A stretch of DNA of 64,000 nucleotides, taken from Pseudacidovorax sp. RU35E. Its GTDB lineage: Bacteria > Pseudomonadota > Gammaproteobacteria > Burkholderiales > Burkholderiaceae_C. Below, piece by piece: positions 23,871 through 40,600 of this stretch (within the stretch, counting starts at the first letter, position 1; each line of letters begins with the position of its first letter). Both the position numbers and the translations under genes were made by a program. The DNA lies in NCBI RefSeq assembly GCF_900156165.1, contig NZ_FTMY01000007.1:248001-312000 (forward strand), given 5' to 3'. Below the pieces are notes generated by a model. The model was not told the origin of the DNA, ran no database searches, and was given only the letters and a program-made list of their open reading frames with translations.

Positions 23871-23871
23871 A

Positions 23872-24255: not shown

Positions 24256-24555
24256 ATGGATTACTTCTTGATCATGGTCGGCGTGGCACTCGTGGTCGGC
24301 TTGATTTCCGTTGCCCAGCAGAAGGCCGTTACGGCGCCTGGTCGCGACCTGGCGAACACGTTTGCCGCGTTGGGAACGCTAACTGGGCGTACCGAGCAAG
24401 AGATCGTGGATGCTGTAGGCCCAGCCAATGCCATCAGCGCCATGGCTGACGGAGGAAAGCTGATGCAGTGGCAGCGCACCGGCTACCACATCGCGCTTGC
24501 CTTCAAGGAAGGGGTGTGTGCAGGCGTTACGCATGAGTACCTGCACCACAACTGA
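24256..24555 (+). CDS. small membrane-anchored phage protein
   Basis: 99 residues with an N-terminal membrane segment (MDYFLIMVGVALVVGLISVA) and a soluble domain (residues about 35-99, GRTEQEIVDAVGPANAIS...GYHIALAFKEGVCAGVTHE). It is co-oriented with the repressor, so may be expressed in the lysogen. Function unknown; a lysogenic-conversion role is only speculation. Confidence 0.6.
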   Translation: MDYFLIMVGVALVVGLISVAQQKAVTAPGRDLANTFAALGTLTGRTEQEIVDAVGPANAISAMADGGKLMQWQRTGYHIALAFKEGVCAGVTHEYLHHN

Positions 24556-24600
24556 GTTTGCTTGGCTCGTGAGCATCGACCCCCTTTCGACGGCCACCGA

Positions 24601-24675
24601 TTGACCGTGTCGTCGGGGCCGTGCTAAGTTAGAAAGCCCTCAACGAGGACTCAAGGCCGACATCTGTCGGCCTTA
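24601..24675 (+). promoter_or_regulatory. promoter-hairpin element 1 (before lysis genes)
   Basis: TTGACC (24601-24606), 18 bp, then TGCTAAGTT (weak extended -10), followed 22 bp later by a perfect 9-bp hairpin AAGGCCGAC-ATCT-GTCGGCCTT and TATTC. Two other right-arm gaps carry the same hairpin (31098, 37560). It could be a late promoter with a terminator-like or stabilising leader. Confidence 0.65.
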
Positions 24676-24709
24676 TTCGTTTGGGCGACGCGGACCACGA
24701 TCCCGGTCC

Positions 24710-25279
24710 ATGCGAGTCCCCACCACAGTCTGGAAGTTCGGCGCGCCGCTGGCCCTGGCGAGCGCGGGCCTGATGGCGTTCATTGGCCAGTGGGAGCCGG
24801 ACCACGCCAACCCTGGACGCGTATATGCCGACAACCTGGCCAGCGGCCTGCCCACGGTATGCAACGGCATCACGAAGTACGTGAGCCCGTACCCCGTGGT
24901 GATCGGCGACACCTGGTCGCCCGAGCGCTGCGCCGAGGTCGAGCAGCTGGTGATCGAGCGCGGCCAGCTCACGCTGCTCGACTGCGTGAAGACGCGCATC
25001 GGGCAGAACACCTTCGACGCCCTCTCATCGTTCGCCCACAACCTCGGCAACCGCAACCTCTGCGAAAGCCGCGCGCTCGGACTGATCAATGCCGGCCGCC
25101 TTGCCGAAGGCTGCCGCGCCCTCGCCTTCACCCCTGACGGAAAGCCCAACTGGGCGCTGGTGCGCACCGGCCGCATGTTGCCCAACGGCCAGCCCGAGTA
25201 CCGCTTCGTCCAGGGTCTCCACAACCGCCGCAAGGCGGAGGCCGCTTGGTGCATCAAGCCCGATGGAGCCAAGCCATGA
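24710..25279 (+). CDS. phage lysozyme (GH24-like endolysin) with N-terminal membrane anchor
   Basis: 189 residues. An N-terminal weakly hydrophobic segment (FGAPLALASAGLMAFIG) looks like a SAR signal-anchor. It is followed by a GH24-like region starting WEPDHANPGRVYAD...LPTVCNGITK and FDALSSFAHNLG. It cleaves peptidoglycan at the end of the lytic cycle. First gene of the lysis cassette, coupled to Rz by ATGA. Confidence 0.85.
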   Translation: MRVPTTVWKFGAPLALASAGLMAFIGQWEPDHANPGRVYADNLASGLPTVCNGITKYVSPYPVVIGDTWSPERCAEVEQLVIERGQLTLLDCVKTRIGQNTFDALSSFAHNLGNRNLCESRALGLINAGRLAEGCRALAFTPDGKPNWALVRTGRMLPNGQPEYRFVQGLHNRRKAEAAWCIKPDGAKP

Positions 25280-25941
25280 ACGGATTCAAGTCCTACCTCT
25301 GGGCCGTGGTCGCGATGCTGGCCTTCGCGGCCATGCTCTTCGGCCTCGGCGCCCTGGCCTACCACGCGGGCGACAACGCGGGCCAGAACCGCGAGCGCGT
25401 CATCTGGGTGAAGAAGGAGCGCGACCAGGCCGAAGCCTTCGCGCAGCAGCTCGCCGCCGAGGCCAAGCGCGGTCAACAGGCCTCTGCCGATCTGAATCGC
25501 CGGCTGCTCACCCTCAACGATTCCTACACCGCCCTCGAAGGGAAATACCGTGATGTTCTGGCTCGCGTGCCTCTTGTCGTTCCTGCTGCTGTTCGCCCTG
25601 TCCGTGTGGCTGGGGGTTCGGGCAGTCCATCGCCAGGTGCTGCTCAGCCGGCCAGCCCTGATGCGGCTGCTGGCCAGCCGAAGCGTGGCGATGTCGATGC
25701 TGATCGTTTTCGCCTCAGCCTTGCTGCTGTATGGATGTGGAACAGCTCGCTCGCCGGCACTGATGTCCCGGCCCATTCCTGCGGATCTGCTGACACCTCC
25801 GAGCAAGCCTGTGCTGCTGATTCCGGCCTCAGCCTCGCCGACGCCTGGGCCAACCATCACGCCAACGCCAAGAGCTGCGCCGTCGACCGAGAACGACACC
25901 GCGCGCTGATCGAGTTCCTCACCGAGAGCCCCGCCCAATGA
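25276..25941 (+). CDS. Rz-like inner-membrane spanin
   Basis: 221 residues: one N-terminal membrane helix (LWAVVAMLAFAAMLFGLGALAY) and a charged coiled-coil-like periplasmic part (KKERDQAEAFAQQLAAEAKRG). The position after the endolysin and the nested +1-frame lipoprotein gene are diagnostic of Rz/Rz1. It is longer than typical Rz (about 150) with a Cys-containing C-terminal extension. Confidence 0.8.
   Translation: MNGFKSYLWAVVAMLAFAAMLFGLGALAYHAGDNAGQNRERVIWVKKERDQAEAFAQQLAAEAKRGQQASADLNRRLLTLNDSYTALEGKYRDVLARVPLVVPAAVRPVRVAGGSGSPSPGAAQPASPDAAAGQPKRGDVDADRFRLSLAAVWMWNSSLAGTDVPAHSCGSADTSEQACAADSGLSLADAWANHHANAKSCAVDRERHRALIEFLTESPAQ
25553..25909 (+). CDS. nested Rz1-like outer-membrane spanin lipoprotein
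   Basis: Encoded entirely inside the Rz gene in another frame. It carries a lipobox (LLLYGC) followed by a Pro-rich tail (SRPIPADLLTPPSKP, then more Pro), the hallmark of Rz1. The ATG at 25553 has a GAAGGGA site but adds an extra N-terminal membrane segment; starts at 25691 or 25697 would give the usual compact lipoprotein. Confidence 0.7.
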   Translation: MFWLACLLSFLLLFALSVWLGVRAVHRQVLLSRPALMRLLASRSVAMSMLIVFASALLLYGCGTARSPALMSRPIPADLLTPPSKPVLLIPASASPTPGPTITPTPRAAPSTENDTAR

Positions 25942-26294
25942 GCGCACCCGAAGAACAAGACCGCGGCCGTGACAGCGCCCGCACCCAGGAGCTGCTGCTG
26001 CTGGGCCAGATCCACGGCATGGTGCAGGCACTGCGCGACGGGCAGGAGGCCACCAACGCCCGGATCGAGGAGCAGGGCCGGACGATCAACGCGCGCATGG
26101 AGGCCCAGGGCAACGCGTTCAATGCCCGACTGGAGGGCATCGACGGCCGCCTGCGCACGGTCGAGCAGCGCGCGGCCGTGGCCGGGGCCGTCTCGGGCGG
26201 CGCCATGGCGGTCGGCACCGCGCTGATCATCGAAGGCATCAAGGCCTGGTTCCGCGGCGGCGGTGGTGGCGGCGGCATGTTCCCGGGCCCCTGA
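25938..26294 (+). CDS. coiled-coil protein with C-terminal membrane helix (XhlA-like layout; holin candidate)
   Basis: 118 residues. Heptad-like region (EATNARIEEQGRTINARME), one C-terminal membrane helix (VSGGAMAVGTALIIEGIKAWF) and a Gly-rich end. The layout resembles XhlA-type holin-associated proteins. It overlaps the Rz stop (ATGA) and is the last gene of the lysis cassette. No other clear holin was found, so this is the best candidate. Confidence 0.55.
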   Translation: MSAPEEQDRGRDSARTQELLLLGQIHGMVQALRDGQEATNARIEEQGRTINARMEAQGNAFNARLEGIDGRLRTVEQRAAVAGAVSGGAMAVGTALIIEGIKAWFRGGGGGGGMFPGP

Positions 26295-26297
26295 CCC

Positions 26298-26795
26298 ATG
26301 GCACACGGCTCGGAGAAGCGCACTACGCTGCGCGGCCTGTACGTCTACCAGCGCCTGCCGATGGAAATCGCCTGCACCAAGGCAGGCGTGCCCAAGTCGA
26401 CGGGTAATCGCTGGAAGACGGAGGCCAAGGCGGCGGGCGATGACTGGGACAGCGTCCGCTCGGCCGTGGCCCTGGGCGACGAGAACTTCGCCACCATGGG
26501 CAAGAAGCTGCTGGAGGACTACCTTGTCCAGCACCAGGCCGCCATGGACATGCTGCGAGACGACAAGAACATGTCCGCCCGCGACCGCGCAGAGACGCTG
26601 GCGAGCATGAGCGACAGTTTCAACAAGACGATGGCTTCGTTCCGCCGCCTGTCGCCCGAGTTGAACAAGCAGGCGGTCCAGCTGGACGTGCTGCGCCTGC
26701 TGGCCGGGTTCGCCCAGCGCCGCTTTCCCCAGCACGTCGCAGCGCTGCTGGACATGCTCGAACCCTTCGGCGAAGAGCTGGCGAAGGCGGGTTAA
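26298..26795 (+). CDS. terminase small subunit-like protein (DUF1804)
   Basis: 165 residues. N-terminal HTH (YQRLPMEIACTKAGVPKSTGNRWKTEAK) and a helical C-terminal part (LDVLRLLAGFAQRRFPQHVAALLDMLEPF), typical of the DUF1804 family beside terminase genes of Mu-like phages. It likely recognises the packaging site. It ends 3 bp before the large subunit. Confidence 0.8.
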   Translation: MAHGSEKRTTLRGLYVYQRLPMEIACTKAGVPKSTGNRWKTEAKAAGDDWDSVRSAVALGDENFATMGKKLLEDYLVQHQAAMDMLRDDKNMSARDRAETLASMSDSFNKTMASFRRLSPELNKQAVQLDVLRLLAGFAQRRFPQHVAALLDMLEPFGEELAKAG

Positions 26796-26798
26796 ACC

Positions 26799-28475
26799 GT
26801 GGCAAAGAAACCGGGCAAGGAGTTCTTCGAAGGCCTTGCGCAGCTCGCCGAGCAGCTGCGCCGCCAGATCGATGCCAACCTCGACGGCTGGGACATCTCG
26901 CCGGAGGCCGTGGCAGAGCGCCGCCGCAAGGTGTTCGATCCGATCAGCGGCTATGAATTCTGGGACCGCACCTACTTCCCGCACTACGGCACGGCCGAAC
27001 CGAGCGAGCTGCACAAGTACCTGTATGAGCGCCTGCCGCGCATCGTCGCCACGAAGGCCGGCCAGCGCGATGCCATCGCCGCGCCACGGGGTGAAGCCAA
27101 GTCCACGAAGGTCTCCATGTCCTTCGTGCTCTGGACCGTCATCACCGGGATCAAGTGGTATCCGGTGATCGTGATGGACGCATTCGAGCAGGCCGCCGAA
27201 ATGCTCGAAGCGATCAAGGCCGAGCTGGAGGCCAACCCGCGGATCGCGGGCGACTTCCCCGAGGCTGCGGGCCAGGGTAAGGTCTGGCGGGCCGGGGTGA
27301 TCGTCACGGCCAACGGCCGAAAGATCGAGGCTTTCGGCTCGGCCAAGAAGATCCGGGGCCGCCGCCATGGTTCTCACCGTCCTGACCTGGCCATCATGGA
27401 CGACATCGAGAACGACGAGAACGTCCAGACGCCAGCGCAACGGGACAAACTCGCCAAGTTCGTGACGGCCAGCGTGCTCAACCTGGGCCCGCCCGATGAC
27501 AGCATGGACGCCATCATCATCGGGACGGTGCTGGCCTACGACTCGGTGCTTGCGCGGTTCCTGAAGAACCCGATGTGGCACGGCAAGGTCATGAAGGCCA
27601 TCATCCAGTGGCCGGATGACATGGACAAGTGGGACACCTTCGAGGGCCTGCTGCTCAACGCCGGCTCGCCCGATGAAGGGATGGCCTCGGCCATGGCCTT
27701 CTACGAAGAGAACAAGGCGGCCATGGACAAGGGCGCCAAGGTCTCCTGGCCGGCTCTGCGCCCGCTGGTCAAGCTCATGATCAAGCGGGCCCGCGAGGGC
27801 CACGGCGCCTTCGACAGCGAGCAGCAGAACGACCCCACGGCCGGTGACGACGCACCTTTCGCCGACAGCATCCGCTTCTGGGTGAATCGCCTCGCCGAGT
27901 GGATCTTCTACGGCGCCTGCGATCCGTCGCTCGGCCGTGCTGGCAAAGGCCGGACCAACAAGACCGATCCGAGCGCCATCGGCATTGGCGGCTACCAGCG
28001 CGCGCTGGGCATCATGGATGTGGTCGAGGCCAAGATCAAGAAGCGCACGCCCGACCGGATCATCAGCGACATCATCGAGCTGCAGCGGGAGTACTGCTGC
28101 ATCGTGTGGGGCATAGAAAGTGTGCAGTTCCAGGAGTTCCTGCGCACCGAGCTGATCAAGCGCAGCGCCCAACAAGGCGTGCCGGTGCCCGCCCGCGCGC
28201 TCACGCCGATCACGGACAAGGATCTGCGCATCGAGAGCCTGCAGCCCCACATGCACAACGGGCTGATCCGGCTGCATTCCAGCCAGTCGACGCTGATCGA
28301 CCAGTTCCGCCACTTCCCCAACGCTGACCACGACGACGGTCCCGACATGGTCCAGATGCTCTGGACGCTGTGCGTGACCGGTGGCGTGGCGGCGGCCGCC
28401 CAGGGGGGCGCCAAGGCCCCCGCCCAGACCGCGCGGGAGCGCTACGGCCGCCAGGCGCGGCGCATGTTCCGCTGA
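26799..28475 (+). CDS. terminase large subunit
   Basis: 558 residues from a GTG. ATPase part: Walker A-like APRGEAKST (residues 95-103) and Walker B LAIMDDIENDE. Nuclease part: metal-binding CDPSLGR near residue 374 and further acidic motifs downstream. It packages DNA into the prohead; in Mu-like phages it cuts host-flanked copies headful-fashion. Confidence 0.92.
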   Translation: MAKKPGKEFFEGLAQLAEQLRRQIDANLDGWDISPEAVAERRRKVFDPISGYEFWDRTYFPHYGTAEPSELHKYLYERLPRIVATKAGQRDAIAAPRGEAKSTKVSMSFVLWTVITGIKWYPVIVMDAFEQAAEMLEAIKAELEANPRIAGDFPEAAGQGKVWRAGVIVTANGRKIEAFGSAKKIRGRRHGSHRPDLAIMDDIENDENVQTPAQRDKLAKFVTASVLNLGPPDDSMDAIIIGTVLAYDSVLARFLKNPMWHGKVMKAIIQWPDDMDKWDTFEGLLLNAGSPDEGMASAMAFYEENKAAMDKGAKVSWPALRPLVKLMIKRAREGHGAFDSEQQNDPTAGDDAPFADSIRFWVNRLAEWIFYGACDPSLGRAGKGRTNKTDPSAIGIGGYQRALGIMDVVEAKIKKRTPDRIISDIIELQREYCCIVWGIESVQFQEFLRTELIKRSAQQGVPVPARALTPITDKDLRIESLQPHMHNGLIRLHSSQSTLIDQFRHFPNADHDDGPDMVQMLWTLCVTGGVAAAAQGGAKAPAQTARERYGRQARRMFR

Positions 28476-28488
28476 CCACGAGACCACC

Positions 28489-29994
28489 ATGAGCCTGCTC
28501 ACCCGCATCGCCGAGGCCCTTGGCCTTCAGTCCAGCCCCGCCACAGCCGAGCCCATGCGCGAAGCCGCCGCCGTCCAGAGCAAAGACGAACCCGGGTGGA
28601 CGCGCCTGACGGGCGACGGCACCGGCCGCTACAACGAGCGCGACCTGGCGCCGCTGGCGCAGGACCGCATGGTGAAGCTGGCGGAATACCTGTGGCAATC
28701 CAACCTGCTGGCCAACCGCCTGGTGGAGCTGACGCTTGCCTACCTGCTGGCCGAAGGTGTGACGCTGCAGTGCAAGGACGATCAGCACCAGAAGGTGCTC
28801 GACCGTTTCTGGAACGACCCCATCAACAACTGGCCCATGAAGCTGGAACCCCGCGTGCGCGAGCTGTTCCTGGCCGGGGAGCAGTGCTACATCTGCCACG
28901 TCAACGAAGGCAGCGGCATGGTGCGCCTGGGCTACCTTGACCCGCGGCAGATCTCCACCGTGGTGATGGACCCGGACAACCCCGAGCAGCCCATCGGCGT
29001 GGTCACTCGGAAAGACACCAAGGGGCGCTACAACAAGTTCCGCGTCGTGGTGCTGGGCGACGATGCCGAGCTGTTCACTCAGCGCACGGCCCAGATCCGC
29101 GAGAACGACTTCCAAGATGGGGAGTGCTTCCTCTTCCAGATCAACAAGCTGCCCAGTGGGACGCGCGGCCGGTCAGACCTGCTGGGCCAGATGGACTGGC
29201 TGGACGCCTACGACAACTTCCTGTTCGACGAGATCGACCGGATCGGCTTCCTCCGCTCGTTCGCCTGGGACGTGACAATGGCGGGCGCGGACGAGGACAA
29301 GGTCAAGGAGTTCGAGAAGAACTTCACGCCCCCCGCGCCCAACAGCACCTTCGTCCACAACGACTCGGTCAAGCTTGAAGCGAAGTCCCCCAGCCTCCAG
29401 GCGGCCGACACCAGCACCAGCGCCCGCCTTCTGCGCAACCACGTCCTGGGTGGTGCCACGGTGCCCGAGCACTGGTTCGGCGGCGGCGGCGACGTCAACC
29501 GCGCGGCGGCCTCGGAGATGGGCGAGCCCACGTTCAAGGTGCTCACCAGCCGGCAGACCAAGCTGAAGCTGATGCTCGAGGAGATCGGCCGCTACGTGCT
29601 GATGCAGTCGGACCGCAGCGGCGACACGCCGGACTGGAGCGATCCGGCGTGGCAGGTGACGGCCGTCTTCCCTGAGCTGATCAATGCCGACCTGACGAAG
29701 TTTGCCGCCGCTATGCAGGGCGTGGTCAACGCTGTCTCGATGCTGATCGACAAGGGCCTGATGACCGAGGAAACCGCCCTGGGCATCGTGGCCGACGTTG
29801 CGCAGCGCTTCGGGCAGGAGTTCGACGCCAAGGCAGAGCTGCAGCAAGCCCGCGCCGAGCACGCCCAGCGAAAGGCCGCCCAGGCCGCCCAGGACGTGTT
29901 CAACCTGCCTGCGGATCTCCAGCAGGCCGCGCGGGACAGCGGCAGCGGCGCATCCACGCCCGCGCCAGCTCCTGGGCCCGCCCCGGGCGCATGA
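28489..29994 (+). CDS. phage portal protein
   Basis: 501 residues. Portal-type sequence: NEGSGMVRLGYLDPRQIS, the loop NDFQDGECFLFQINKLP, and TSARLLRNHVLGGATVPEHWFGGG. It forms the dodecameric DNA entry pore. The N-terminus holds IAEA and MREA, which fit the cleavage motif proposed for the capsid polyprotein. It lies between terminase and minor head protein, as usual. Confidence 0.88.
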   Translation: MSLLTRIAEALGLQSSPATAEPMREAAAVQSKDEPGWTRLTGDGTGRYNERDLAPLAQDRMVKLAEYLWQSNLLANRLVELTLAYLLAEGVTLQCKDDQHQKVLDRFWNDPINNWPMKLEPRVRELFLAGEQCYICHVNEGSGMVRLGYLDPRQISTVVMDPDNPEQPIGVVTRKDTKGRYNKFRVVVLGDDAELFTQRTAQIRENDFQDGECFLFQINKLPSGTRGRSDLLGQMDWLDAYDNFLFDEIDRIGFLRSFAWDVTMAGADEDKVKEFEKNFTPPAPNSTFVHNDSVKLEAKSPSLQAADTSTSARLLRNHVLGGATVPEHWFGGGGDVNRAAASEMGEPTFKVLTSRQTKLKLMLEEIGRYVLMQSDRSGDTPDWSDPAWQVTAVFPELINADLTKFAAAMQGVVNAVSMLIDKGLMTEETALGIVADVAQRFGQEFDAKAELQQARAEHAQRKAAQAAQDVFNLPADLQQAARDSGSGASTPAPAPGPAPGA

Positions 29995-30920
29995 CGCCGG
30001 AGCAGAAGTCCTTCCAGGCCGCGCTGGCTGAGCGCCTGCGTGAGCGGGCGCGCACCCAGCTGTCGGGCGAGACCCAGGTGCTCAAGCAGCTGGCCCAGGC
30101 ACGCGCCAGCATCTTGTCCATCCTGGCGGGTCTGCCGTCGGACTATCAACAGTGGCAGCTCTCACGCCTTCTGGGCCAGATCAACGACGTGATCGACGGG
30201 GCAACCACCCAGGCCGGCGTGCTGTTCGACAGCACTGCCCGGGCGATCTGGCAGCAGGGCGAGGACTTCATCGACAAGCCGCTCGCCGTGATCGGCCGCG
30301 CCGTGGAGCTGCAGCTGCCCCTCCTCGACACCCGCGTCCTGACGGCGATGCGCAGCTTCGGCCAGCTGCGCCTCAAGGACGTGGGGAGGGAAGCCACCAG
30401 CAAGATCGGCGCGCAGCTCAGCCAGGTCACCATCGGCGCCCAGCCGGTCCAGGACGCCGTCCGGGCCATCCAGGCCCAGCTGGCGGGCCCGACGCCCGTG
30501 CGCGCGACCACCATCGTGCGCACTGAGGTTGGCCGGGTGTTCGCGGTGGCCAGCGAGGACCGCCTGGAGCAGGCGGCCGACCTGGTGCCGGATCTGCAGA
30601 AACAGTGGCGGCGCAGCGCCAAGATCCACAGCCGGTGGACGCACGACCTGATGGACGGCCAGGTCGTGGGGGCGAAGGAGTCGTTCAAGGTGCCCAATCC
30701 CGGCGGCGGCTTCGACATGATGAAGTGCCCCCACGACCCTCAGGCACCCGCCGAGCAGGTGATCAACTGCGGCTGCGTGATGCTCCCGACCATGAAGGGA
30801 TGGCAGGTGATGACCCCGGGCGCCAAGCCTTTCACCAAGAAAGAGCTTCAACAGGACGGCCGAAAAGCTGCCCTTGACCAGGCCGCCAAGCGCGCCGGAC
30901 GGCGGCAGGAAACCGCCTGA
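29991..30920 (+). CDS. minor head protein (Mu gpF / SPP1 gp7-like)
   Basis: 309 residues. C-terminal motif typical of the head-morphogenesis family: SRWTHDLMDGQVV...FKVPNPGGGFDMMKCPHDPQAPAEQVINCGC. Its ATG overlaps the portal stop. It probably sits inside the portal/head and helps assembly or ejection. Confidence 0.85.
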   Translation: MTPEQKSFQAALAERLRERARTQLSGETQVLKQLAQARASILSILAGLPSDYQQWQLSRLLGQINDVIDGATTQAGVLFDSTARAIWQQGEDFIDKPLAVIGRAVELQLPLLDTRVLTAMRSFGQLRLKDVGREATSKIGAQLSQVTIGAQPVQDAVRAIQAQLAGPTPVRATTIVRTEVGRVFAVASEDRLEQAADLVPDLQKQWRRSAKIHSRWTHDLMDGQVVGAKESFKVPNPGGGFDMMKCPHDPQAPAEQVINCGCVMLPTMKGWQVMTPGAKPFTKKELQQDGRKAALDQAAKRAGRRQETA

Positions 30921-31029
30921 AACGGCTCGAGGCCGTAGGAGCCGCGATCCGACCTCCACGCCACCAGGGTATGGATTTTTCCGGCGCGGCCCGCCATCGC
31001 ACGGTTTGCGTGGAGTTAAACCTATTCCC

Positions 31030-31119
31030 GGCCCCACCCGGCGGTCTGGAGTTCGGCCGGGGGCCGTGGTAGCCTGAAAACGCTCTCCACGGGCCCCGGC
31101 CGACGCCTGTCGGCCTTAT
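31030..31119 (+). promoter_or_regulatory. promoter-hairpin element 2 (before head genes)
   Basis: Sequence GCCGTGGTAGCCTGAAAACGC aligned with element 1, then a 7-bp hairpin GGCCGAC-GCCT-GTCGGCC followed by TTAT. It occupies the only sizeable gap between minor head protein and capsid genes. The rest of the 253-bp gap has no gene. No clear -35 box, so an activator may be needed. Confidence 0.55.
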
Positions 31120-31173
31120 CTATATGTCGGCCGTCGCTGACAGTCGCTCCATCCCTTATCTGGAGCGATCTCG

Positions 31174-31419
31174 ATGTCCGATCCCACCCAGGCCGACAAG
31201 GCCGCCAAGCAGCTGACCGCGAACGATGCGGCCAAGCTCGTGCGCCGCACCGTCGTGGAGACGGTCGACGGCAAGGACAACGACGGCAACGCCGTCAAGG
31301 TCCAGAAGCCCAAGAAGGTCGGCGTGACCGCCTCCGAGGTGCTGGACTTCAAGGACTACGGCAGCCACGTCGTCGTGGTCACCCGAGACGGCCAGAAGCT
31401 GTCGAGCCTGGACGCCTGA
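31174..31419 (+). CDS. small phage protein upstream of capsid gene
   Basis: 81 residues, charged, ending TASEVLDFKDYGSHVVVVTRDGQKLSSLDA. First gene of the head unit, 7 bp before the capsid polyprotein. No family recognised. Confidence 0.6.
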   Translation: MSDPTQADKAAKQLTANDAAKLVRRTVVETVDGKDNDGNAVKVQKPKKVGVTASEVLDFKDYGSHVVVVTRDGQKLSSLDA

Positions 31420-31426
31420 ACCGCCC

Positions 31427-33844
31427 ATGGCCGTCAAGCTGATTCCCGCGGGCAGCGGCTTCGCCCGCATCACCGAGGCCGTCACCACCGAGTACAGCCA
31501 GCTCATCGAGCTGGTGCGCCAGGCGGTCCTGGCCAAGGTGCGCCTGGCCGGCGGCATCACGAGCGACTACTACGTCGACGTGCGCGGCATCTGGCCCGAC
31601 CAAGTGGTGGTATGCCTGCGCGGCCGGCTCTACGCCTACCCCTACACCATCGACGCCACCAACACCGTGTCGGTGGGCGACGAGCAGGAGGTCGTGGCGA
31701 GCTATCAGCCAGTGGCAGGCGCCGACCCGGCGCCGGTGCGCGAGAGCGCCCAGCAACCGGGCGGCCGGCGCCCCAATGTCGTGGTCATCGATGACGGGCA
31801 GCTCGGCGGCGATATCGCGGCGGTGCTGCGCGAAGCCGCGGACGGCTCCATCCAGGTCACCCTGCTGCGCGCCGGCCAGTCGCTCAACGGCAACTACTAC
31901 CCGGACGCTGTGCTGCGCGAAGCGGCGCCCCAGTTCGAGGGGGTGCGCGTCTTCGTCAAGAGCGACGACGAGCACACCAAGGGCACCGGCAAGTCCGTGC
32001 GCAACCTGATCGGCGGCGTCTACGGCGTGCGCTTCGTCGAAGGCAAGGGCGCCGACCAGGGTGCGCTGACGGGCACCTTCAAGCCGCTGGACCCCAAGGA
32101 TGCCTCCGTGGTCAAGATGACCGAGGCGGTCAAGCGCGGCCTGGCTGGGCTGCTGGGCCTGTCCATCGACGCAGTCGCTCAGACCAAGAAGCGCCAGCAA
32201 GGCCGCGAGGTGCTGCGCGAGGCCGCCAAGTTCATCAAGGTTCATTCCGTCGACCTGATCGTCGAGCCGGGCGCTGGTGGCGGCCTGGATCGTCTCACCG
32301 AAGCCACCGCCACCGACATCTCCCCCAACTCCCCCGAAGGAAGCACCATGCCCCTGTGGAAGAAGCGCCTGCTGGAGGCCATCCAGGCCAAGGATCCGGC
32401 CGCGCACGCCAAGATCGACCCCGCCACCATCGGTGACGACGAGCTGGTCAACCTGCACGAGTCGGTCTGCGGCTCGCTGGTGACGCCGCCCGGCACGTCC
32501 CGCGTCACCGAGGCCGCTCAGCAGGGCGAGAACGCCCCCATCACGCGCGCTGACCTGGCCATGTTCCAGCTGCGCCAGACGGCCGTGACGCGCATCGGCG
32601 CCAGCAAGCTGCCGCAGCCGGCCAAGGATCGCCTGGCCACCCGGTTCAACGCGCTGGAGCGCTTCACCGAGGCCGAGATCGATTCGGCCATCAAGGACGA
32701 GGGCGACTACCTGGCCCGCTTCACCGAGTCCGGCGCCGTTCGCGTGCCGTCCTTCGGCACCGTGTCGGTGGAAGACCGCAGCGCCGTCATCAAGGGCATG
32801 CTGGACGCCTTCTTCGACCCGGCCCACAAGGACCACCGCAACGTCCAGTCGTTCCGCGAATGCTACGTGGAGATCACGGGCGACCGCCGCGTGACCGGCC
32901 GCATCGAGAACTGCGACCTGAGTCGCCTGTCGGAGAGCCTGGGCATCATGCGCGAGTCGGTTTCCAGCTCGACCTTCTCGGCCGCGCTGGGCGACAGCAT
33001 CACCCGCCGCATGCAGGTCCTGTACCTGGGCATGGCGGATCTGGACACCTGGAAGAAGGTGGCGATCTGGGGCCCGGTGAACGACTTCCGCACGCAGGAA
33101 CGCATCCGCATCGGCGGCTATGGCAACCTGCCGGCCGTGGCCCAGGGCGCCGCCTACCAGGCGCTGACCAGCCCGGGCGACGAGAAGGCGACCTATGCCG
33201 TCAGCAAGCGCGGTGGTACCGAGGACGTGACGCTGGAGGCGATCAAGAACGACGACGTGCAGGCGCTGCGCCGGATCCCGCTGGAGCTGGCCCTGGCCGC
33301 CAAGAACACGCTGTACGAGTTCGTGTTCGACTTCTATCGCTCGAACCCGACGATCTACGACACCAAGGCCCTGTACCACGCGGACCACGGCAACCTGTTC
33401 ACGGCCGCGCTTTCGGCCGCCGAATTCGCCGCGCACCGCCTGGCCATGCAGAAGCAGACGCGCGCCGGCAGCGGCAAGCGGCTGGCCACGGCGCCCACCG
33501 CGCTGCTGGTGCCCTTCGAGCTTCAGGAGACGGCCTACAACCTGTTCGTGCGCGGCCAGAACCTGGACAAGACCTTCGTCCAGACCATCAACCCGGAAGT
33601 CATTCCGGTGTCGTACTGGACCGATGGCAACGACTGGGTGACGGTGGGCGACCCCAACCGCACGCCTGTGGTGGAGATCGGCTTCCTCGACGGCCGCGAA
33701 GAGCCCGAGCTGTTCGTGCAGGACATGCCCAACGTCGGCTCCATGTTCACCAACGACAAGGTGACCTACAAGATCCGCCACATCTACGGCGGCAACGTGC
33801 TGGTCGACGGCTTCAAGGCCACCACCAAGGCCGTGGTGGCCTGA
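31427..33844 (+). CDS. head protease-scaffold-major capsid polyprotein
   Basis: 805 residues. Protease-like region at about 115-285 (SLNGNYYPDAVL, KSDDEHTKGTGKS, GLLGLSIDAV, KVHSVDLIVEP), a charged scaffold-like linker (about 290-500) and a Mu gpT-like major capsid domain (about 511-805: ITRRMQVLYLGMADLDTW). A strong in-frame internal start (GAAGGAAG then ATG) at 32348 would give scaffold-capsid alone. Motif [LIVMF]-x-E-[AS] recurs about 14 times before residue 512 and not after. Confidence 0.85.
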   Translation: MAVKLIPAGSGFARITEAVTTEYSQLIELVRQAVLAKVRLAGGITSDYYVDVRGIWPDQVVVCLRGRLYAYPYTIDATNTVSVGDEQEVVASYQPVAGADPAPVRESAQQPGGRRPNVVVIDDGQLGGDIAAVLREAADGSIQVTLLRAGQSLNGNYYPDAVLREAAPQFEGVRVFVKSDDEHTKGTGKSVRNLIGGVYGVRFVEGKGADQGALTGTFKPLDPKDASVVKMTEAVKRGLAGLLGLSIDAVAQTKKRQQGREVLREAAKFIKVHSVDLIVEPGAGGGLDRLTEATATDISPNSPEGSTMPLWKKRLLEAIQAKDPAAHAKIDPATIGDDELVNLHESVCGSLVTPPGTSRVTEAAQQGENAPITRADLAMFQLRQTAVTRIGASKLPQPAKDRLATRFNALERFTEAEIDSAIKDEGDYLARFTESGAVRVPSFGTVSVEDRSAVIKGMLDAFFDPAHKDHRNVQSFRECYVEITGDRRVTGRIENCDLSRLSESLGIMRESVSSSTFSAALGDSITRRMQVLYLGMADLDTWKKVAIWGPVNDFRTQERIRIGGYGNLPAVAQGAAYQALTSPGDEKATYAVSKRGGTEDVTLEAIKNDDVQALRRIPLELALAAKNTLYEFVFDFYRSNPTIYDTKALYHADHGNLFTAALSAAEFAAHRLAMQKQTRAGSGKRLATAPTALLVPFELQETAYNLFVRGQNLDKTFVQTINPEVIPVSYWTDGNDWVTVGDPNRTPVVEIGFLDGREEPELFVQDMPNVGSMFTNDKVTYKIRHIYGGNVLVDGFKATTKAVVA
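32348..33844 (+). CDS. internal in-frame product: scaffold + capsid (proposed)
   Basis: ATG at codon 308 of the polyprotein (MPLWKKRLLEAI) is preceded by GAAGGAAGC with good spacing. It would produce a 498-residue protein without the protease, like lambda Nu3 inside C. It would raise the capsid-to-protease ratio. Proposed from the ribosome-binding site only. Confidence 0.5.
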   Translation: MPLWKKRLLEAIQAKDPAAHAKIDPATIGDDELVNLHESVCGSLVTPPGTSRVTEAAQQGENAPITRADLAMFQLRQTAVTRIGASKLPQPAKDRLATRFNALERFTEAEIDSAIKDEGDYLARFTESGAVRVPSFGTVSVEDRSAVIKGMLDAFFDPAHKDHRNVQSFRECYVEITGDRRVTGRIENCDLSRLSESLGIMRESVSSSTFSAALGDSITRRMQVLYLGMADLDTWKKVAIWGPVNDFRTQERIRIGGYGNLPAVAQGAAYQALTSPGDEKATYAVSKRGGTEDVTLEAIKNDDVQALRRIPLELALAAKNTLYEFVFDFYRSNPTIYDTKALYHADHGNLFTAALSAAEFAAHRLAMQKQTRAGSGKRLATAPTALLVPFELQETAYNLFVRGQNLDKTFVQTINPEVIPVSYWTDGNDWVTVGDPNRTPVVEIGFLDGREEPELFVQDMPNVGSMFTNDKVTYKIRHIYGGNVLVDGFKATTKAVVA

Positions 33845-33897
33845 AGAAGAACCTGAACGCCCGCGAAGGGCAAGCAGTGAGGGTGGCGCCCTACGCC

Positions 33898-33924
33898 CCC
33901 GCCTCCGAATGGAGGCGGGTTTCT
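33898..33924 (+). terminator. terminator-like hairpin after capsid gene
   Basis: CCCGCCTCC-GAAT-GGAGGCGGG followed by TTTCTCC, in the 130-bp gap behind the capsid gene. Probably a partial terminator or an mRNA 3'-end stabiliser, since the downstream genes are on the same strand. Confidence 0.65.
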
Positions 33925-33974
33925 CCAGGCGCCGCCCTGGCCCCTGAAGAAACCCGACGCCCCGTTTAACTTCC

Positions 33975-34667
33975 ATGGCCCTGTCCGACTACCAGCAGCT
34001 CGTGCGCCGTCTCATCGGCGGCTCGGACGCGACCGCGAGCGATGGCGACATCGACGACGCCATCGGCCTGGCGCTGGTCCGTTACAGCGCCGACATGCCC
34101 CGCGTGCTGATCCGCGACACGGCATGGCTGGTGTCCGGCTATCTCGGCCCGCTCCCCGCCGGCTGGGAGACGGCCAGCAAGGTTCTCTCGGCGGAATACC
34201 CCATTGGCCGCCAGCCGCCCCGCATCATCCCCGCCTCAATCTACGAGGACGACGGCGGCGCCGTGCTGGTGACCGTCGACTCGCTCCCGGCCGCTGCCGA
34301 GGTGCGGATCTCCTTCTCGGCACCGCACATGCTGACCGACCAGGCCGACACCATCCCGCTGGTGCACCGCGAGGCGGTGGCCAGCTATGCGGCGCATTCG
34401 CTGTGCCGCCAGCTGGCGGCGCGCTTCAGCGGGGAGCGCGAGGCGTCCATCAATGCGGATGGGAGCAACACCGAGAGCCGGGCACGCAACTATGCGGCCC
34501 GGGCCAAGGAATACCGGGCCGTCTACTACGGCGCGCTCGGCAAGCCGGATCCTGCCCTGTTGACGAGCGGCCAGACCGCCGGGTCGGGTGCGACGCCGGC
34601 TGCATCAGTGGGCAGCTGGCCCGGGCGGCCGCGCAACCGTCTGACCCGCATGGGGCTGGACCTGTGA
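33975..34667 (+). CDS. head-tail connector-like protein
   Basis: 230 residues. Position directly after the capsid gene and N-terminal MALSDYQQLVRRLIGGSD plus many small residues suggest a head-completion or adaptor protein, but no motif names it. Its TGA overlaps the GTG of the next gene. Confidence 0.55.
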   Translation: MALSDYQQLVRRLIGGSDATASDGDIDDAIGLALVRYSADMPRVLIRDTAWLVSGYLGPLPAGWETASKVLSAEYPIGRQPPRIIPASIYEDDGGAVLVTVDSLPAAAEVRISFSAPHMLTDQADTIPLVHREAVASYAAHSLCRQLAARFSGEREASINADGSNTESRARNYAARAKEYRAVYYGALGKPDPALLTSGQTAGSGATPAASVGSWPGRPRNRLTRMGLDL

Positions 34668-35167
34668 GCGCGCTTGCCCTGAGCGCGCCCGCCCTTGCGG
34701 CCATCAGCCAGGGGCTGCAGCAGGATCCGGCCATGGCGCGGCGCGAGCTGCTCATCACGATGACCGAGGCCACGCTGCTGGTCGAGCGCGAGGCGAAGGA
34801 ACGTATGCCGCGCGGCGCCACGGGGTTGACGGCACAGAGCATCCAGTCCGACGCCTTCAGCACGCCCGCCGGGGTGCTGGGCGTGGTCGCCAGCTCGCTG
34901 CCCTCGGCGGGTGCCGTCGAGTTCGGTACCCGCCCGCATATGCCGCCAGTCTCGGCCCTGGTGCCGTGGGTGCGCGCCGTGCTGGGAGTGTCGGCCAAGG
35001 AGGAGCTGGGCGTGGCCTACCTGGTCGCCCGCAAGATCGCCCGCCGCGGCACGGAAGCCCAGGCCCCGTTCGCCAAGGCCATCGCGGCGACCGAGTCGCA
35101 GGTGCTGCGCATGTTCGAGGCCGCTGCTGTCCGCATCGCCGCGCGCATGGCCGGAGGTGCAGCGTGA
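34664..35167 (+). CDS. HK97 gp10-like neck/tail completion protein
   Basis: 167 residues from a GTG overlapping the previous stop. Pattern AKERMPRGATGLTAQSIQSDAF...AGAVEFGTRPHMPPVSALVPWV is that of HK97 gp10-like tail-completion proteins. Confidence 0.75.
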   Translation: MSALALSAPALAAISQGLQQDPAMARRELLITMTEATLLVEREAKERMPRGATGLTAQSIQSDAFSTPAGVLGVVASSLPSAGAVEFGTRPHMPPVSALVPWVRAVLGVSAKEELGVAYLVARKIARRGTEAQAPFAKAIAATESQVLRMFEAAAVRIAARMAGGAA

Positions 35168-35643
35168 GCACCGTGGCCGAAGTGCGGGCCGCCATCGCGG
35201 CTGCCGCCCGCGCCGTGCCTGACTTCGGCCAAGTGCATGAGTACGAGCGGTACGTGCGCGACGAAGCGAAGTTCAAGCAGCTCTACACCTTCACGCCGTC
35301 GAACGGTCCGTTGCAGCTTCGCGGCTGGTGGATGCGCCGGGTGCGCACGGTGGAGCGCTCGCCTCACATCGGCCGCGTCATCAACGTTCACGACTGGCGC
35401 ATGCGGGGCTACATGTCGCTCGCCGACGCCGACGCGTCCGAGCTGGAGTTCGACCGGCTGATCGAAGCCTTCCGCGATGCGGTGCGCGCCGACCCGACCT
35501 TCGGCGGCGTGTGCATCCCCGGCGACCAGGTCGACGGCGACACCCAGAGCGGCGTCCAGGTCGAAGACCTGAACCCCGTGCTGTTCTGCAACGTGCTGTG
35601 CAACAGCGCGGTGCTTTCCCTCAAGACCTGGAGCTACCTGTGA
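35164..35643 (+). CDS. tail terminator-like phage protein
   Basis: 159 residues from a GTG overlapping the previous stop. The order connector, gp10-like, this gene, tail tube suggests the tail terminator, but the assignment is by position. Middle segment LRGWWMRRVRTVERSPHIGRVINVHDWRMRGYM. Confidence 0.5.
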   Translation: MSTVAEVRAAIAAAARAVPDFGQVHEYERYVRDEAKFKQLYTFTPSNGPLQLRGWWMRRVRTVERSPHIGRVINVHDWRMRGYMSLADADASELEFDRLIEAFRDAVRADPTFGGVCIPGDQVDGDTQSGVQVEDLNPVLFCNVLCNSAVLSLKTWSYL

Positions 35644-35825
35644 CCCGAAGGCCCAACGTTGACACCGACACCCCCGTGCCCGCGGCCCAAGCGCCGGCCG
35701 CGCCCCAACCGGCCCCCGCGCCCGAAGCGCCCGCCGCCGACGAACACGCCGGCCGGGGCGGCCTGTACGAAATGCGCGACGGCAAGCGCGTACTGATCGA
35801 GCGCGGCGGCGACGCCCAGGCCTGA
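35640..35825 (+). CDS. small Pro/Ala-rich phage protein
   Basis: 61 residues from a GTG overlapping the previous stop (GTGA). A low-complexity Ala/Pro region followed by a compact C-terminus (GGLYEMRDGKRVLIERGG). Probably a minor neck or head-surface component; function unknown. Confidence 0.5.
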   Translation: MTRRPNVDTDTPVPAAQAPAAPQPAPAPEAPAADEHAGRGGLYEMRDGKRVLIERGGDAQA

Positions 35826-35858
35826 TCGGCAGACCCCACCCACAAGGAGTTAAACGCC

Positions 35859-36785
35859 ATGGCGAAATTCATGCGCAAGATGGCCCTGCTGGCCAAGATC
35901 GAGGCCGTTCGCGGCACTGACGCCGTGCCCACCGGGGCGGCCAATGCCATCCTGGCCAGCAACGTCAACCTCACGCCGCTGGATGGCGACGCCGTCGAGC
36001 GCGACGTGATCCGCCCCTATCTGGGTGCCGGCGGCTCGGTGATGGCCACGCTCTTCAACAAGGTGGCCTTCAGCGTCGAGGCGGCCGGCGTGGCCGCAGC
36101 CGGCGACCAGCCCGCCTACACCGCGCTGCTGCGCGCCTGCGCCATGTCGGTCACCGTGGCTGCCGGCGCGACGTGCACCTTCGCGCCGATCTCGGACGCC
36201 ATGGAGTCGGTCACGATCTACGGCGTGGTGGACGGGGTGGTGCACAAGATGCTCGACGCGCACGGCACGGTGAAGCTGACGGCGGATGCCAAGGGCATTC
36301 CGAAGTGGGACTTCGAGTTCACCGGTCTCTTCGTGCCCGTGGCCGACGTGGCGATGCCCGTGGCGGTGTACACGGCCTACCAGCGCCCGCTGCCGGTCAA
36401 CAAGCTCAACACCACCCTCACGCTCGACGGCTACACGGCCGCCGCCAGTGCCTTCAGCTTCGACGCGGGCAACACGGTGGTCAAGCGCGATCTGATCGGC
36501 GTCGACTCGGTGGAGATCAGCAACCGCAAGTCGGTTGGCTCGGTGACGCTCGAAGCCACGTCGGTAGCCGCCAAGGCTTGGGTGAACATGGCCGCTGCCA
36601 GCGCCCAGGTGCCCCTGGTGCTGAACCACGGCCAGGCCGCCACGAACGTGGTGCAGCTCAATGCACCGAAGGCCGAGCTGGGCAAGCCCACCTACTCCGA
36701 CAGCGATGGCATCCAGATGGTCACGCTGCCGCTGACGTTCGTGCCCACCAGCGGCAACGACGAGTTCTCCATCGTCATCCACTGA
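35859..36785 (+). CDS. major tail tube protein
   Basis: 308 residues, rich in beta-strand-like alternation, with repeating Ser/Thr/Val patterns and the family-like ending LPLTFVPTSGNDEFSIVIH. A good ribosome-binding site (AAGGAG) and its place just before the chaperone/tape-measure genes identify the siphovirus tail tube. Confidence 0.82.
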   Translation: MAKFMRKMALLAKIEAVRGTDAVPTGAANAILASNVNLTPLDGDAVERDVIRPYLGAGGSVMATLFNKVAFSVEAAGVAAAGDQPAYTALLRACAMSVTVAAGATCTFAPISDAMESVTIYGVVDGVVHKMLDAHGTVKLTADAKGIPKWDFEFTGLFVPVADVAMPVAVYTAYQRPLPVNKLNTTLTLDGYTAAASAFSFDAGNTVVKRDLIGVDSVEISNRKSVGSVTLEATSVAAKAWVNMAAASAQVPLVLNHGQAATNVVQLNAPKAELGKPTYSDSDGIQMVTLPLTFVPTSGNDEFSIVIH

Positions 36786-36790
36786 ACGCC

Positions 36791-37168
36791 ATGGCCCAGA
36801 AGCTCAAGATCAACGCCAAGCCCACCTTCAGCGCCCCGGTGCTGCTGACCCTGGCCGGCGACGACGGCAAGACGGTGGAGGTGCACTTCACGGCCGTATT
36901 CCGCCGCCTGCCCGATTCGCAGGCTAAGGACGTCCAGAAGCGCATGGACGGCGGCACCATGACGGACGACGAGCTGATCGCCCTGGTGCTGTGCGGCTGG
37001 TCGCAGCTGGAGGCCGACGACGGCACCCCGTTCGCGTTCACCGCCGAGAACCTGGCGGCGGCGCGCGAGGACTGGCCGACCTTCGCGGCGGCCATCATCT
37101 TCAGCTACTTCAAGCACAACGACGCGGCCGTCATAAAAAACTCCGCGCGGCCGTCCGCTTCCTCCTAG
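36791..37168 (+). CDS. tail assembly chaperone (short product, lambda G-like)
   Basis: 125 residues, 5 bp after the tail tube gene. It ends just past the heptamer A-AAA-AAC, where some ribosomes are expected to slip. The pair corresponds to lambda G and GT, which hold the tape measure during tail assembly. Confidence 0.8.
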   Translation: MAQKLKINAKPTFSAPVLLTLAGDDGKTVEVHFTAVFRRLPDSQAKDVQKRMDGGTMTDDELIALVLCGWSQLEADDGTPFAFTAENLAAAREDWPTFAAAIIFSYFKHNDAAVIKNSARPSASS

Positions 37169-37515
37169 GCGGCGGCGCGGCCAGCGTTCACGATGAGCTT
37201 GACGATGATCTTCAGAGCCAGGCTGTTCGGCTTGGCATCGATGCTGCGCGGTTGTGCAGCGATGACGCCCGCCGCGACGCCGGTGGCTTCGAACTGTGGG
37301 AGGAGCACGTCGAAGCCTTCCAGGTCTTCTACCTTTGCGCGCGCCAGTGGCGCTTCAGCCTCGGGTTCGGCACGGTCTGGTATGAGGGCCTGGATCTGGG
37401 TGCGGTGGACGTGGCGATGCGGCGCCTGCGTGTCCCCGATGAACGGTCGGAGACGGTGCTGCTTCAGCTCCGGGTGATGGAAGAGGAAGGGCGCGACGTG
37501 CTCAACGCGCGTTGA
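36791..37515 (+). CDS. tail assembly chaperone, -1 frameshift product (GT-like, DUF1799 part)
   Basis: Slippage at A-AAA-AAC (37135-37141) would join 117 codons of the short frame to 124 codons of the -1 frame (starting L-R-A-A-V-R), giving 241 residues. The added part reads like DUF1799 (HVEAFQVFYLCARQWRFSLGFGTVWYEGLDL). The -1 frame has no ribosome-binding site of its own. Confidence 0.75.
37135..37176 (+). promoter_or_regulatory. programmed -1 ribosomal frameshift signal
   Basis: Slippery heptamer A-AAA-AAC in the correct phase (ATA AAA AAC). After an 8-nt spacer, a stem pairs 37150-37158 with 37169-37176: eight GC pairs with one bulged T at 37154 and a 10-nt loop. Confidence 0.85.
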
Positions 37516-37583
37516 CGCCCACGCTGGCGCCGGGCAGACTGGAGCCAGCCAACAGCAAAAAGGCCGACACGCGTCGGCCTTAT
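37512..37583 (+). promoter_or_regulatory. promoter-hairpin element 3 (before tape measure)
   Basis: TTGACG (37512-37517, overlapping the chaperone stop), 17 bp, CAGACT, then 19 bp later the perfect 9-bp hairpin AAGGCCGAC-ACGC-GTCGGCCTT followed by ATTC. Same hairpin as elements 1 and 2. Confidence 0.65.
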
Positions 37584-37614
37584 TCATTTGGGGCCGCGCG
37601 CAGACCATGCCGGC

Positions 37615-40600
37615 ATGGCAGGTCAAGAGCGGCAGGTCGGTATTCGGATGACCCTCGACGCCACTTCGGTGGTGTCGGGTCTGCCGGTGGCTGGCCGCGA
37701 GGTCGACCGCTTCGGCAGCCAGGTGGTCGCCGCCTCGCAGAAGGCGACCCAGGGCCTGGACCGCGTGCGGATCTCCACGCGCGACCTGATCGGAAGCGCG
37801 GCCGGTCTGACCGTCGTGGCGGCGGGCGTGGCGGCCGTCACGCAGGCCCTTACCAGCCTGCCGCAGCGCGGCATCGGTTTCAGCGCCGAGATCGAGGTGG
37901 CCCAGCTGGGCATGGCCGGCATCCTGCGCTCCATGACGGCCGTCAACGGCCGGCAGACCGAGTGGAACCAGGCCCTTGGCATTGCCGGCGACATGATCGG
38001 CAAGCTCAACGACGACGCGCTGCGCACGGCAGCGTCGAGCCAGGAGCTGGTGGGCGTATTCCAGGCGCTGCTCGGCCCTGGCCTGGCCGCCCGCATGACG
38101 CTCGACCAGATCCGCGAGCTGACTGTCGTCGGCACCAACGCCGTGAAGAGCCTGGGCCTGAACGGCGCCCAGGTGGTGCAGGAGCTGCGCGACCTGGTGC
38201 AGGGCGGCATCACCACGGCCGGCTCGTCGCTGGCCACCGCCCTTGGCCTGAAGGACGAGGACATCGCGAAGGCGAAGGCATCGAGCGAGGGCCTGTTTAA
38301 CTTCCTGATGAAGCGGCTGCAGGGCTTCAAGGATTCCTCCGACGCCTTCGGCAACACGCTGAAGGGCAGCCTCGACCAGCTGCAGGAGGGTGCAACCCGC
38401 GTCGCGGCCGATGGCATGCAGCCGCTCACCGAGGCCATCAAGGCGGCGGTGCAGGAAAGCGCCAAGCTCTTCGTGACCACGGATGCCAGCGGGCAGCAGC
38501 AGGTCAATCAGCAGCTGGTCGCCGGCATTCGTGAATATGCCCAGGGCGCCGCCACCGCGCTCCAGGTGGGCCGGGACGTGGCAGTGCAGGCATGGGCGCA
38601 CCGGGACGCCATCGTCGCGCTGGCGGGTGCCTATGCAGCCTTCCGGCTGGGCCAGTGGGGTGCCGAGGCGGCAACCGCGGTGCGCGCGCAGCTCGATCTT
38701 GCCCAGGCCTCGCGACTGGCGCGCGTTGAGGCGGCTGCGACCGTGGCCACGGATGCACAGGCCGCGATGACAAGCCGCGAGAAGGTCGCCGCACTGCTCG
38801 CGGAACTGCAGGCGACACAGGCCACTACCGCGGCCGAGGCGCAGGCTGCAGCGTCCAAGGTGACCCAGCTGGCCGCGACGAACGAGGCAATCGTGGCATC
38901 GCGGGCCGAAGTGGTGGCGAAGATGGAGGCCGCCCGCGCCACGATGGCCCAGGCCCAGGCGCAGATCCAGGCCGCTGCCGCAGCAGGCGCCCAGAGCTAT
39001 GCGCTCGCGACGCTGCGTGAAGGCACCGCCACGCTGGCGGCCGCGCAGGCTCGCCATGCAGCGCTGATGGCGGAGCTGGCTGTGCTGGGCCAGCAGCAGA
39101 CCCGGGTGAGCGCGCAGCTCGCGGCGGCGACGGCCGCGCAGACCGCGGCACAGGAGGCCGCTGCTGCCTCCGCCGGCCGTCTCGCCGCTGCGACCGGCGC
39201 TGCGGGGGCTGCTGCGGGTGCCGCCTCCCTGGCCGCGCGCGGCTTCGGCGTGGTGGTGGGTGCGCTGGGCGGCCCGGTCGGCATCGCCATCATGGCCGTC
39301 ACCGGCCTGGCCATGTGGCTCTACCGCCTCAAGTCCGCCGCCGACGACGCGGCCGTGACGGCCGTGCAGATCCAGCGGGCCGAGCAGATGGCCGCCAGCG
39401 GCAAGACGCCCGAGCTGCGCGACGTCGCCGCCATGGAAGCGGAGCTGGGCCGCTGGAAGCAGAAGCGCGACGAGCTGATGGCCTCCGGTGGCAGCAGTAC
39501 GGAATGGATCAACGGGGCGCCGGTTAAATCGACGCTCGACAGCGTGAACGCCGGCATCGCCCAGCTCGAAGAGCGGCTCGGCAAGGTCAAGGCCGCGTCC
39601 GGCCAGGCCAGCCAGGGCAACCAGCAGATGACGCTGACCCTGGAGGGCGCGCGGCAGGCATGGATGAAGTCCAACGCGGACGTGAAGACCGGCTCTGCCA
39701 TCCAGCAGGAATACCAGCAGAAGCTGCAGGCCAGCCGCAACGCGTTCCAGCAGTACCTGGAGGTGCTGAAGGCCCAGCCCGGCGGCGCATCACTGCGGAC
39801 GCTGGAAGACGCCCAGGCCCGCCAGCTCGAGAACGAGAAGGGCCTGAAGCAAGAGCGCGACAAGGCCATCAAGGCCCTCAACGCCGACGCTGTGCAGGCG
39901 GACAAGCACAACCTGGACGCGCAGATCGAGGCCGTCAAGCAGGGCTACAAGCTGAAGGCGGTGGCCACCGCTGATGGGCTGGACGAGATCGACAGCCTGG
40001 TCAAGCGCGACCTGCTGTCGGAGTACTCGGCCGTCGCGCGCCGCCGCGAACTTCAACTGGCCGACCTGCAAAGCCGGGAGCAGGCCCTGCGCCGCGAGCT
40101 GGAGCTGACGCGCAAGAAGAAGGACTCGCAGAAGGAAGCCGCCGCCCTGGAAGGTGAGCTGGTGGAGCTGGCTGCGCAGCGGCAGACGCTGCTGAACAAG
40201 TCCGGCCGCGATCAGGAAGAGCTGCTCGTCGCGCCACAGCTGGCCCAGCTGAAGGCCATGCGCGACACGGTGGCCAGCACCTACGAGCAGATCGCGGCGC
40301 AGGAGCTGCAGAACGCCTCTATCGGCAAGGCCAAGACGGCGGCCAACGACTTCACCATCGCGCAACTTCAGCGCCAGCGCGCCGACCTGGAGGCCACGGA
40401 CAACGTCATCCCCGGCTACGTCAAAGCACTCGATGACCGCATCGCCGCCGAGCAGCGCCTGCGCCGAGTTGTTGGGGCGGGCGAAGGCATACAGATCGCG
40501 GTGGACTGGCAGAACCAGCAGCGCGATCAGGCGCGCAAGATGGGCGAGGACGTGCGGTCCAACTTCCTGCAGGGTGTCACGAGCCTGATGGAAGGCGACA

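Follow-up and report, generated by a model that had tools for sequence, protein, structure and literature searches.

The 64,000-nt stretch of Pseudacidovorax sp. RU35E DNA analysed here (contig NZ_FTMY01000007.1, positions 248,001 to 312,000; the window) carries a Mu-like, transposable siphophage that is laid out like Pseudomonas phage B3, including an early gene of the Mor family of activators and a series of late genes (Table 1). Three copies of one palindrome occupy the gaps before the endolysin, capsid and tape-measure genes. Perfect stems GGCCGAC/GTCGGCC were located at 24655-24672, 31098-31115 and 37562-37579 (copies 1 to 3), as the initial annotation had reported; in copies 1 and 3 an AA/TT extension of the stem gives the starts 24653 and 37560 recorded there. 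TTAT directly follows all three stems. Copies 1 and 2 are also alike upstream, as noticed earlier, in a common block around GGGGCCGTG(C/G)TA.

The pattern GGCCGACnnnnGTCGGCC was found without mismatch at 3 places in the whole genome of 5,685,444 bases, all three in this prophage; the same pattern reversed occurred once per strand. With ≤3 mismatches allowed, the window gave 14 matches versus 15.5 expected, and the exact stem alone stands out. An Rfam scan of positions 23500-38500 gave no match, and no prior description of these repeats was found in the titles and abstract openings searched, the genome papers of B3 and D3112 lying outside that search.

Geometry of the palindrome and its flanks

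Collection of further copies yielded 60 matches, 46 of which were kept, corresponding to 36 when made non-redundant at <85% identity. Left out were 10 in which the stem lacks a following TTA, all mirror readings or 3-mismatch matches, 1 mirror reading in record G006 and 3 in G009, which are the same as those of the window; TTA after the stem is partly imposed on the 46 copies by this filter. Named carriers having both the stem and the -10 described below were mostly Acidovorax, Pseudacidovorax, Comamonas and Paracidovorax, genera of the family Comamonadaceae. Within the host's family, the stem followed by TTA was present in 11 of 399 genomes (phage context was not checked for each). Across the 36 non-redundant copies the stem showed three substitutions in total. 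The 4-nt loop does vary between copies, as described previously, but it is constrained: position 4 was T or C in 34/36 and position 1 was A in 26/36.

A -10-like hexamer, missed in the initial annotation, begins exactly 23 nt after the stem in all three window copies. The same spacing was observed in 46/46 kept copies, with the sequence [GC]AC[ACG][AG]T (variants AACGAT and CAAAGT), part of this set having been collected with a pattern that included the hexamer. In an unbiased offset scan of 39 distinct sites collected by stem and TTAT alone, A[CA]n[AG]T occurred at offset 24 in 25 sites and at any other offset (0-59) in no more than 3. Of the 14 sites without the hexamer at offset 24, 4 were palindromes of the count read in mirror image, and the other 10, not examined further, belong to other bacteria and archaea.

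When the hexamer is taken as the -10 (-12 to -7), the centre of the palindrome falls at -44.5 in 3/3 window copies, and A is the commonest base at the predicted +1 (26 of 36 copies). The stretch usual for a -35 is occupied by the end of the dyad and the T-tract, leaving no -35 box at the predicted late promoter; a promoter scan detected none of the three sites. The arrangement GCCGA-CnnnnG-TCGGC can be fitted to the plan of the Mu promoter Pm, in which two 5-bp inverted repeats flank a 6-bp G/C-rich centre, but here the symmetry extends both outward and inward and the centre is not always G/C-rich.

Upstream of the dyad there is a sigma70-like promoter (P_up), which is real: TGnTAnnnT was present within 60 nt upstream of 23 of the 36 non-redundant copies versus 0.44% of random 60-mers, and in 21 of those 23 it lay 22-25 nt from the stem. 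In 7 copies TTGAC was located 50-54 nt upstream of the stem. Two of these copies belong to the window, where they are the TTGAC(C/G) boxes already noted for copies 1 and 3; a spacer of 18 nt separates each box from a -10-like hexamer. P_up points into the dyad and T-tract, and part of the copies are without it.

The window and twelve public phages were also searched de novo, with shuffled controls, for dyads that recur with a -10 at a constant distance. The three sites of the window ranked first, with a triple score of 25.5 against a best of 19.5 in 40 shuffles. The best triple of B3 was a different dyad, ATTTTCG...CGAAAAG, scoring 23.0, with none of 40 shuffles above 20.5; it is found at 11574, 19843 and 26826, preceding the lysis, protease and tape-measure genes. 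Curvibacter phage TJ1 has two copies of a third palindrome (pair score 27.5, versus 22.5 and 23.0 for the best of 12 shuffles per strand). In phage DMS3, TGAACCCCTTC was found by reading at 10212 and 18987, followed by CACGAT and CACCAT and centred at -43.5. Across five operator types the dyad centre ranged from -42.5 to -44.5.

Mor and the covariation of its recognition helix with the dyad

The prophage has one Mor-family gene and no paralogue of the Mu activator C. Its product matched PF08765 above the cut-off (E = 3e-10) and a PHROG annotated as late transcriptional activator. In the AlphaFold model (predicted local distance difference test score 84), residue R115, at which the substitution described below occurs, stands at the start of the last helix. 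The five solved structures nearest to the model in Foldseek were those of Mu C and Mu Mor, either by themselves or in complex with polymerase (E 0.089-0.65). A second Mor-family gene, perhaps that of another Mu-like prophage, is located elsewhere in the host genome (G000:C17:554715-554933).

Mor was found in 10 of the 18 records of the first set. A search with the Mor alignment returned 45 loci, 9 of them in records already in the set; 26 of the remaining 36 were searched, and 24 of these 26 further records had no match to the GGCCGAC operator at ≤3 mismatches. Eighteen of these 26 were taken for dyad reading, and the dyads at this geometry were GGCCAGC in 11, CCTGAA in 3, GGCCGAC in 2 and GGTGAA in 2. 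A helix of the form LTERx[VI]xRI (with MTER and RIL in one record) was associated with GGCCGAC in 12/12 records, some half-sites being changed in two of them (G006 and G416), and LTE[GS]x[VI]xRI was associated with GGCCAGC in 11/11. Within LTExx[VI]xRI, each half-site is thus of the GAC type when position R115 holds Arg and of the AGC type when it holds Gly or Ser.

The cleanest comparison was between records G431 and G012, the Mor proteins of which are 87% identical over 107 residues. Ser replaces Arg in the recognition helix, the other differences lying outside the helix, and at the two sites compared each of the four half-sites has AGC in place of GAC. Apart from this change, the two are alike from the dyad to the ATG; the upstream flanks differ.

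Proposed late promoters and alternative explanations

The identity and number of the copies, the fixed -10 spacing, the phage-specific dyads at the same places and the covariation of helix and dyad together argue that the three elements are very probably Mor-dependent late promoters, one each for the lysis, capsid and tape-measure blocks, with the palindrome as the DNA operator of Mor. Activation by Mor had been suggested in the initial annotation. From sequence we infer Mor binding, Mor dependence and the start sites. A dimer of Mor made from the early operon would occupy the 24-bp dyad (TAA)GGCCGACRnnYGTCGGCC(TTA), centred at about -44.5. The bound protein would stand in for the -35 box and recruit RNA polymerase to the weak -10 ([GC]AC[ACG][AG]T), so starting the three late operons for lysis and packaging, capsid, and tape measure and tail, and no separate C activator would be needed.

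Several observations weigh against this proposal. B23-type Mor proteins have LTERRVWEI and yet another dyad, CCTGAA, so Arg alone does not set the dyad and would count within the context of the helix; the CCTGAA scores of 22.5-23.5 are within the shuffle range, and the three Mor proteins concerned are 95-96% identical to that of B23. The tree needs two changes for AGC, a single origin being compatible with the supported branches, and few independent events lie behind the concordance of helix and dyad. Joint change of both arms keeps the pairing too and so fits RNA. The structural similarity from Foldseek is weak (best E 0.089), and a sequence search of PDB did not recover Mor. In the de novo search, the B3 pair score of 24.5 is below the shuffle maximum of 25.5, the triple alone exceeding its controls; B23 equalled its shuffles (22.0); and neither Mu's own sites nor those of DMS3, D3112, KS10, RC1, QH16, YPCBV-1, POA1180 and PCA1 were above noise. 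Since that search fails on Mu itself and on most Mu-like phages, absence there means little. P_up is not explained by a Mor operator.

The most serious alternative, possible though rather unlikely as either a main or a side role, is that the stem and T-tract form an intrinsic terminator or attenuator, possibly antiterminated, in RNA arriving from P_up or the preceding operon. From its usual distance, P_up would send transcripts directly through the stem and T-tract, and at copy 1 transcription of the CI-like repressor gene runs in the direction of the lysis gene. The stem with its T-tract was terminator-like in a consensus scan, the terminator score was >0 in 30/36 copies, and GAC-type stems were fully paired in 45/46 copies, one G006 copy keeping wobble pairs after two changes. 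In B3-like phage Fc02, the second, structural late cluster appears to end at a rho-independent terminator (PMC9936078). The scores of the window copies, however, are as low as 4.8, -0.1 and 4.8, and no T-tract was seen on reading the corresponding sites of B3 and DMS3. The AGC-type stems have an internal A.G or A.A mismatch in 15/31 copies, while at least 5 T are kept among the 8 bases after the stem in all 31 (the bases directly following being TTA in 15, TTT in 15 and TGT in 1), indicating a T-tract independent of the stem. The pyrimidine at loop position 4 lengthens the half-site at a place where base pairing in RNA would scarcely be possible, which also speaks against a hairpin. The window scores would be compatible with weak termination of transcripts from upstream. 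Selection on RNA structure, suggested on the basis of a conserved stem and variable loop, was not retained as the main cause, given these broken stems and conserved sequence beyond the pairing; it is the stem sequence itself that is conserved.

Promoter-proximal antitermination occurs in lambda Q and HK022 put systems, where several promoters of one phage are followed by a common hairpin. The elements resemble these in having a hairpin common to several promoters, and differ in that the main predicted start lies 3′ of the stem, which is itself 3′ of P_up, and the pairing is not kept in AGC relatives. That start position, 36-38 nt 3′ of the stem, also counts against the earlier suggestion of a hairpin within the late leader: a stem between an upstream promoter and the genes could act as a 5′ stabiliser, but with a Mor promoter the transcript begins beyond it, which makes this explanation very improbable. 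Hardly more credible is an operator of the lysogenic repressor acting as a roadblock to the late genes. A dimer site 3′ of a sigma70-like promoter could act in this way and a CI-like gene is at hand, but the genome has no further exact copy and hence none at the early or repressor promoters, the dyad tracks the helix of Mor, and the fixed downstream -10 would be left unexplained. Least plausible of all, despite the location at module boundaries, are boundary sequences kept identical by recombination and lacking regulatory function, for which the exact -10 spacing, the position of the start sites and the helix covariation would have no explanation.

Table 1. Positions in the window of the putative promoter elements and of the prophage genes discussed
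Feature	Position	Strand	Remarks
Copy 1 P_up	24601-24630	plus	TTGACC 24601-24606, 18-nt spacer, extended -10 TGCTAAGTT 24622-24630 (hexamer TAAGTT)
Copy 1 dyad CAAGGCCGACATCTGTCGGCCTTA	24652-24675	plus	Predicted Mor dimer site, lysis promoter
Copy 1 -10-like CACGAT	24696-24701	plus	Predicted +1 at 24708-24710
Copy 2 P_up	31067-31075	plus	Extended -10 TGGTAGCCT; without TTGAC box
Copy 2 dyad CCCGGCCGACGCCTGTCGGCCTTA	31095-31118	plus	Predicted operator, capsid-block promoter
Copy 2 -10-like GACAGT	31139-31144	plus	Predicted +1 at 31151 (A), which gives a leader of 23 nt to ATG 31174
Copy 3 P_up	37512-37541	plus	TTGACG 37512-37517, 18-nt spacer, weak -10 AGACTG 37536-37541
Copy 3 dyad AAAGGCCGACACGCGTCGGCCTTA	37559-37582	plus	Predicted operator, tape-measure promoter
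Copy 3 -10-like GACCAT	37603-37608	plus	Predicted +1 is A of ATG 37615
Mor-family activator (PF08765)	10088-10498	minus	Early leftward operon, after GemA; last helix of model begins E114-R115
GemA	10495-10920	minus	Early gene
B-like protein	19946-20761	minus	Early gene
Transposase	20758-22932	minus	Early gene
CI-like repressor gene	23872-24222		Transcribed towards lysis gene
Endolysin (Phage_lysozyme)	24710-25279	plus	ATG 24710 is first start codon of frame, 8 nt after -10
Spanin	25246	plus	Late gene
Terminase	26799	plus	Late gene
Portal	28381	plus	Late gene
Protease/capsid	31427-33844	plus	Late gene
Tape measure	37588/37615	plus	Late gene

Predicted leaderless starts and known systems

The endolysin frame contains no start codon ahead of its ATG, so under the promoter model the leader could not exceed about 3 nt. 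For the 5′-most site of 28 records (the window included, its copy G009 excluded), +1 was set 7 nt beyond the -10. An ATG opening at least 60 codons was present at +1 to +3 in 27/28 and at +24 in G001; G015 and G017 have no such start, and their first or only site has the sequence type of their relatives' second site. Nine of ten such first genes matched endolysin families in a protein scan, the 114-aa frame of G003 matching none. AGGA, GGAG, GAGG or AAGG was found 4-18 nt upstream of that ATG in 1/28. The tape-measure ATG is at the predicted +1 in the window and G002 and at +4 in G005. From the predicted starts we infer leaderless endolysin and window tape-measure mRNAs. A leaderless tape-measure start was rejected as a general rule, the long frame opening at +24 in G419 and G428 and the third site of nine other records having an ATG that opens no more than 7-12 codons. 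The nine records with this mini-ORF (open reading frame), its ATG at +1 or +2, are G003, G004, G006, G007, G008, G012, G013, G014 and G016, and it is lost in G010 and G015.

By reading, ATG was also found at +1 or +2 at the B3 protease, both DMS3 sites, both TJ1 sites and the first B23 site. At DMS3 10261 it opens an unannotated ORF. The predicted starts lie 3′ of the annotated codon at the B3 protease (19887) and at TJ1 18620, and 5′ of it at the DMS3 protease (19037); if leaderless starts hold, the annotation of these three genes would have to be amended.

A more elaborate scheme, put forward tentatively and with less than even probability, is a three-level late switch in which the dyad would be operator, insulator and translation gate at once. 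One residue of Mor and every operator copy would change together across all late promoters of a phage. The Mor-dependent start would coincide with the endolysin AUG, and the leaderless mRNA so initiated would alone be translated. Read-through from P_up or the repressor operon would meet the dyad and T-tract and be without a ribosome-binding site.

The predicted promoters resemble Mu Pm in having a Mor-family protein, a dyad near -43.5 in place of the -35 box and a recognisable -10; at Pm, the site of the Mor dimer, with its centre at -43.5, takes the place of the -35 box (PMC4390567; PMC4287176). They differ from it in that Mu Mor drives one middle promoter, whereas here one dyad precedes three late operons, and in the symmetry extending beyond 16 bp. 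With the C-activated Mu promoters Plys, PI, PP and Pmom they share a dyad common to several late promoters, lysis and protease among them, and a T run in the spacer, given as 6T in Plys and Pmom (PMC4461284). Unlike in the Mu C system, there is no C paralogue in the prophage, and the third promoter precedes the tape measure rather than gene P.

Further counterparts are B3 and Fc02 (Beetrevirus), which have the same genome layout, B3 with three dyads before the same three blocks. The B3 dyad differs in sequence, is centred at -42.5 and is without a T-tract, and P_up was not seen by reading in B3 or DMS3. In the Fc02 RNA-seq study, gemA and mor homologues are within the early operon, and there are three late clusters on the forward strand, comprising holin/endolysin with packaging, structural genes, and a third (PMC9936078). 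These clusters would agree with three late promoters, the starts not having been mapped by that RNA-seq.

Relative to the Mu Mor and C promoters, the features that appear to be new are one activator for three late promoters, operator switching and a predicted leaderless endolysin mRNA. The literature surveyed contains little mapping of late control in Mu-like siphophages; the sites provide a testable set of putative Mor operators across many phages, a rule for locating late promoters, and a candidate natural specificity switch of Arg versus Ser or Gly in the recognition helix. Among the late genes, the 805-aa product of 31427-33844 matched both protease-type and capsid families (Phage_capsid_4; PHROGs), and its closest phage record was Microcystis phage Mae-JY22, with 46% identity over 98% of the protein.

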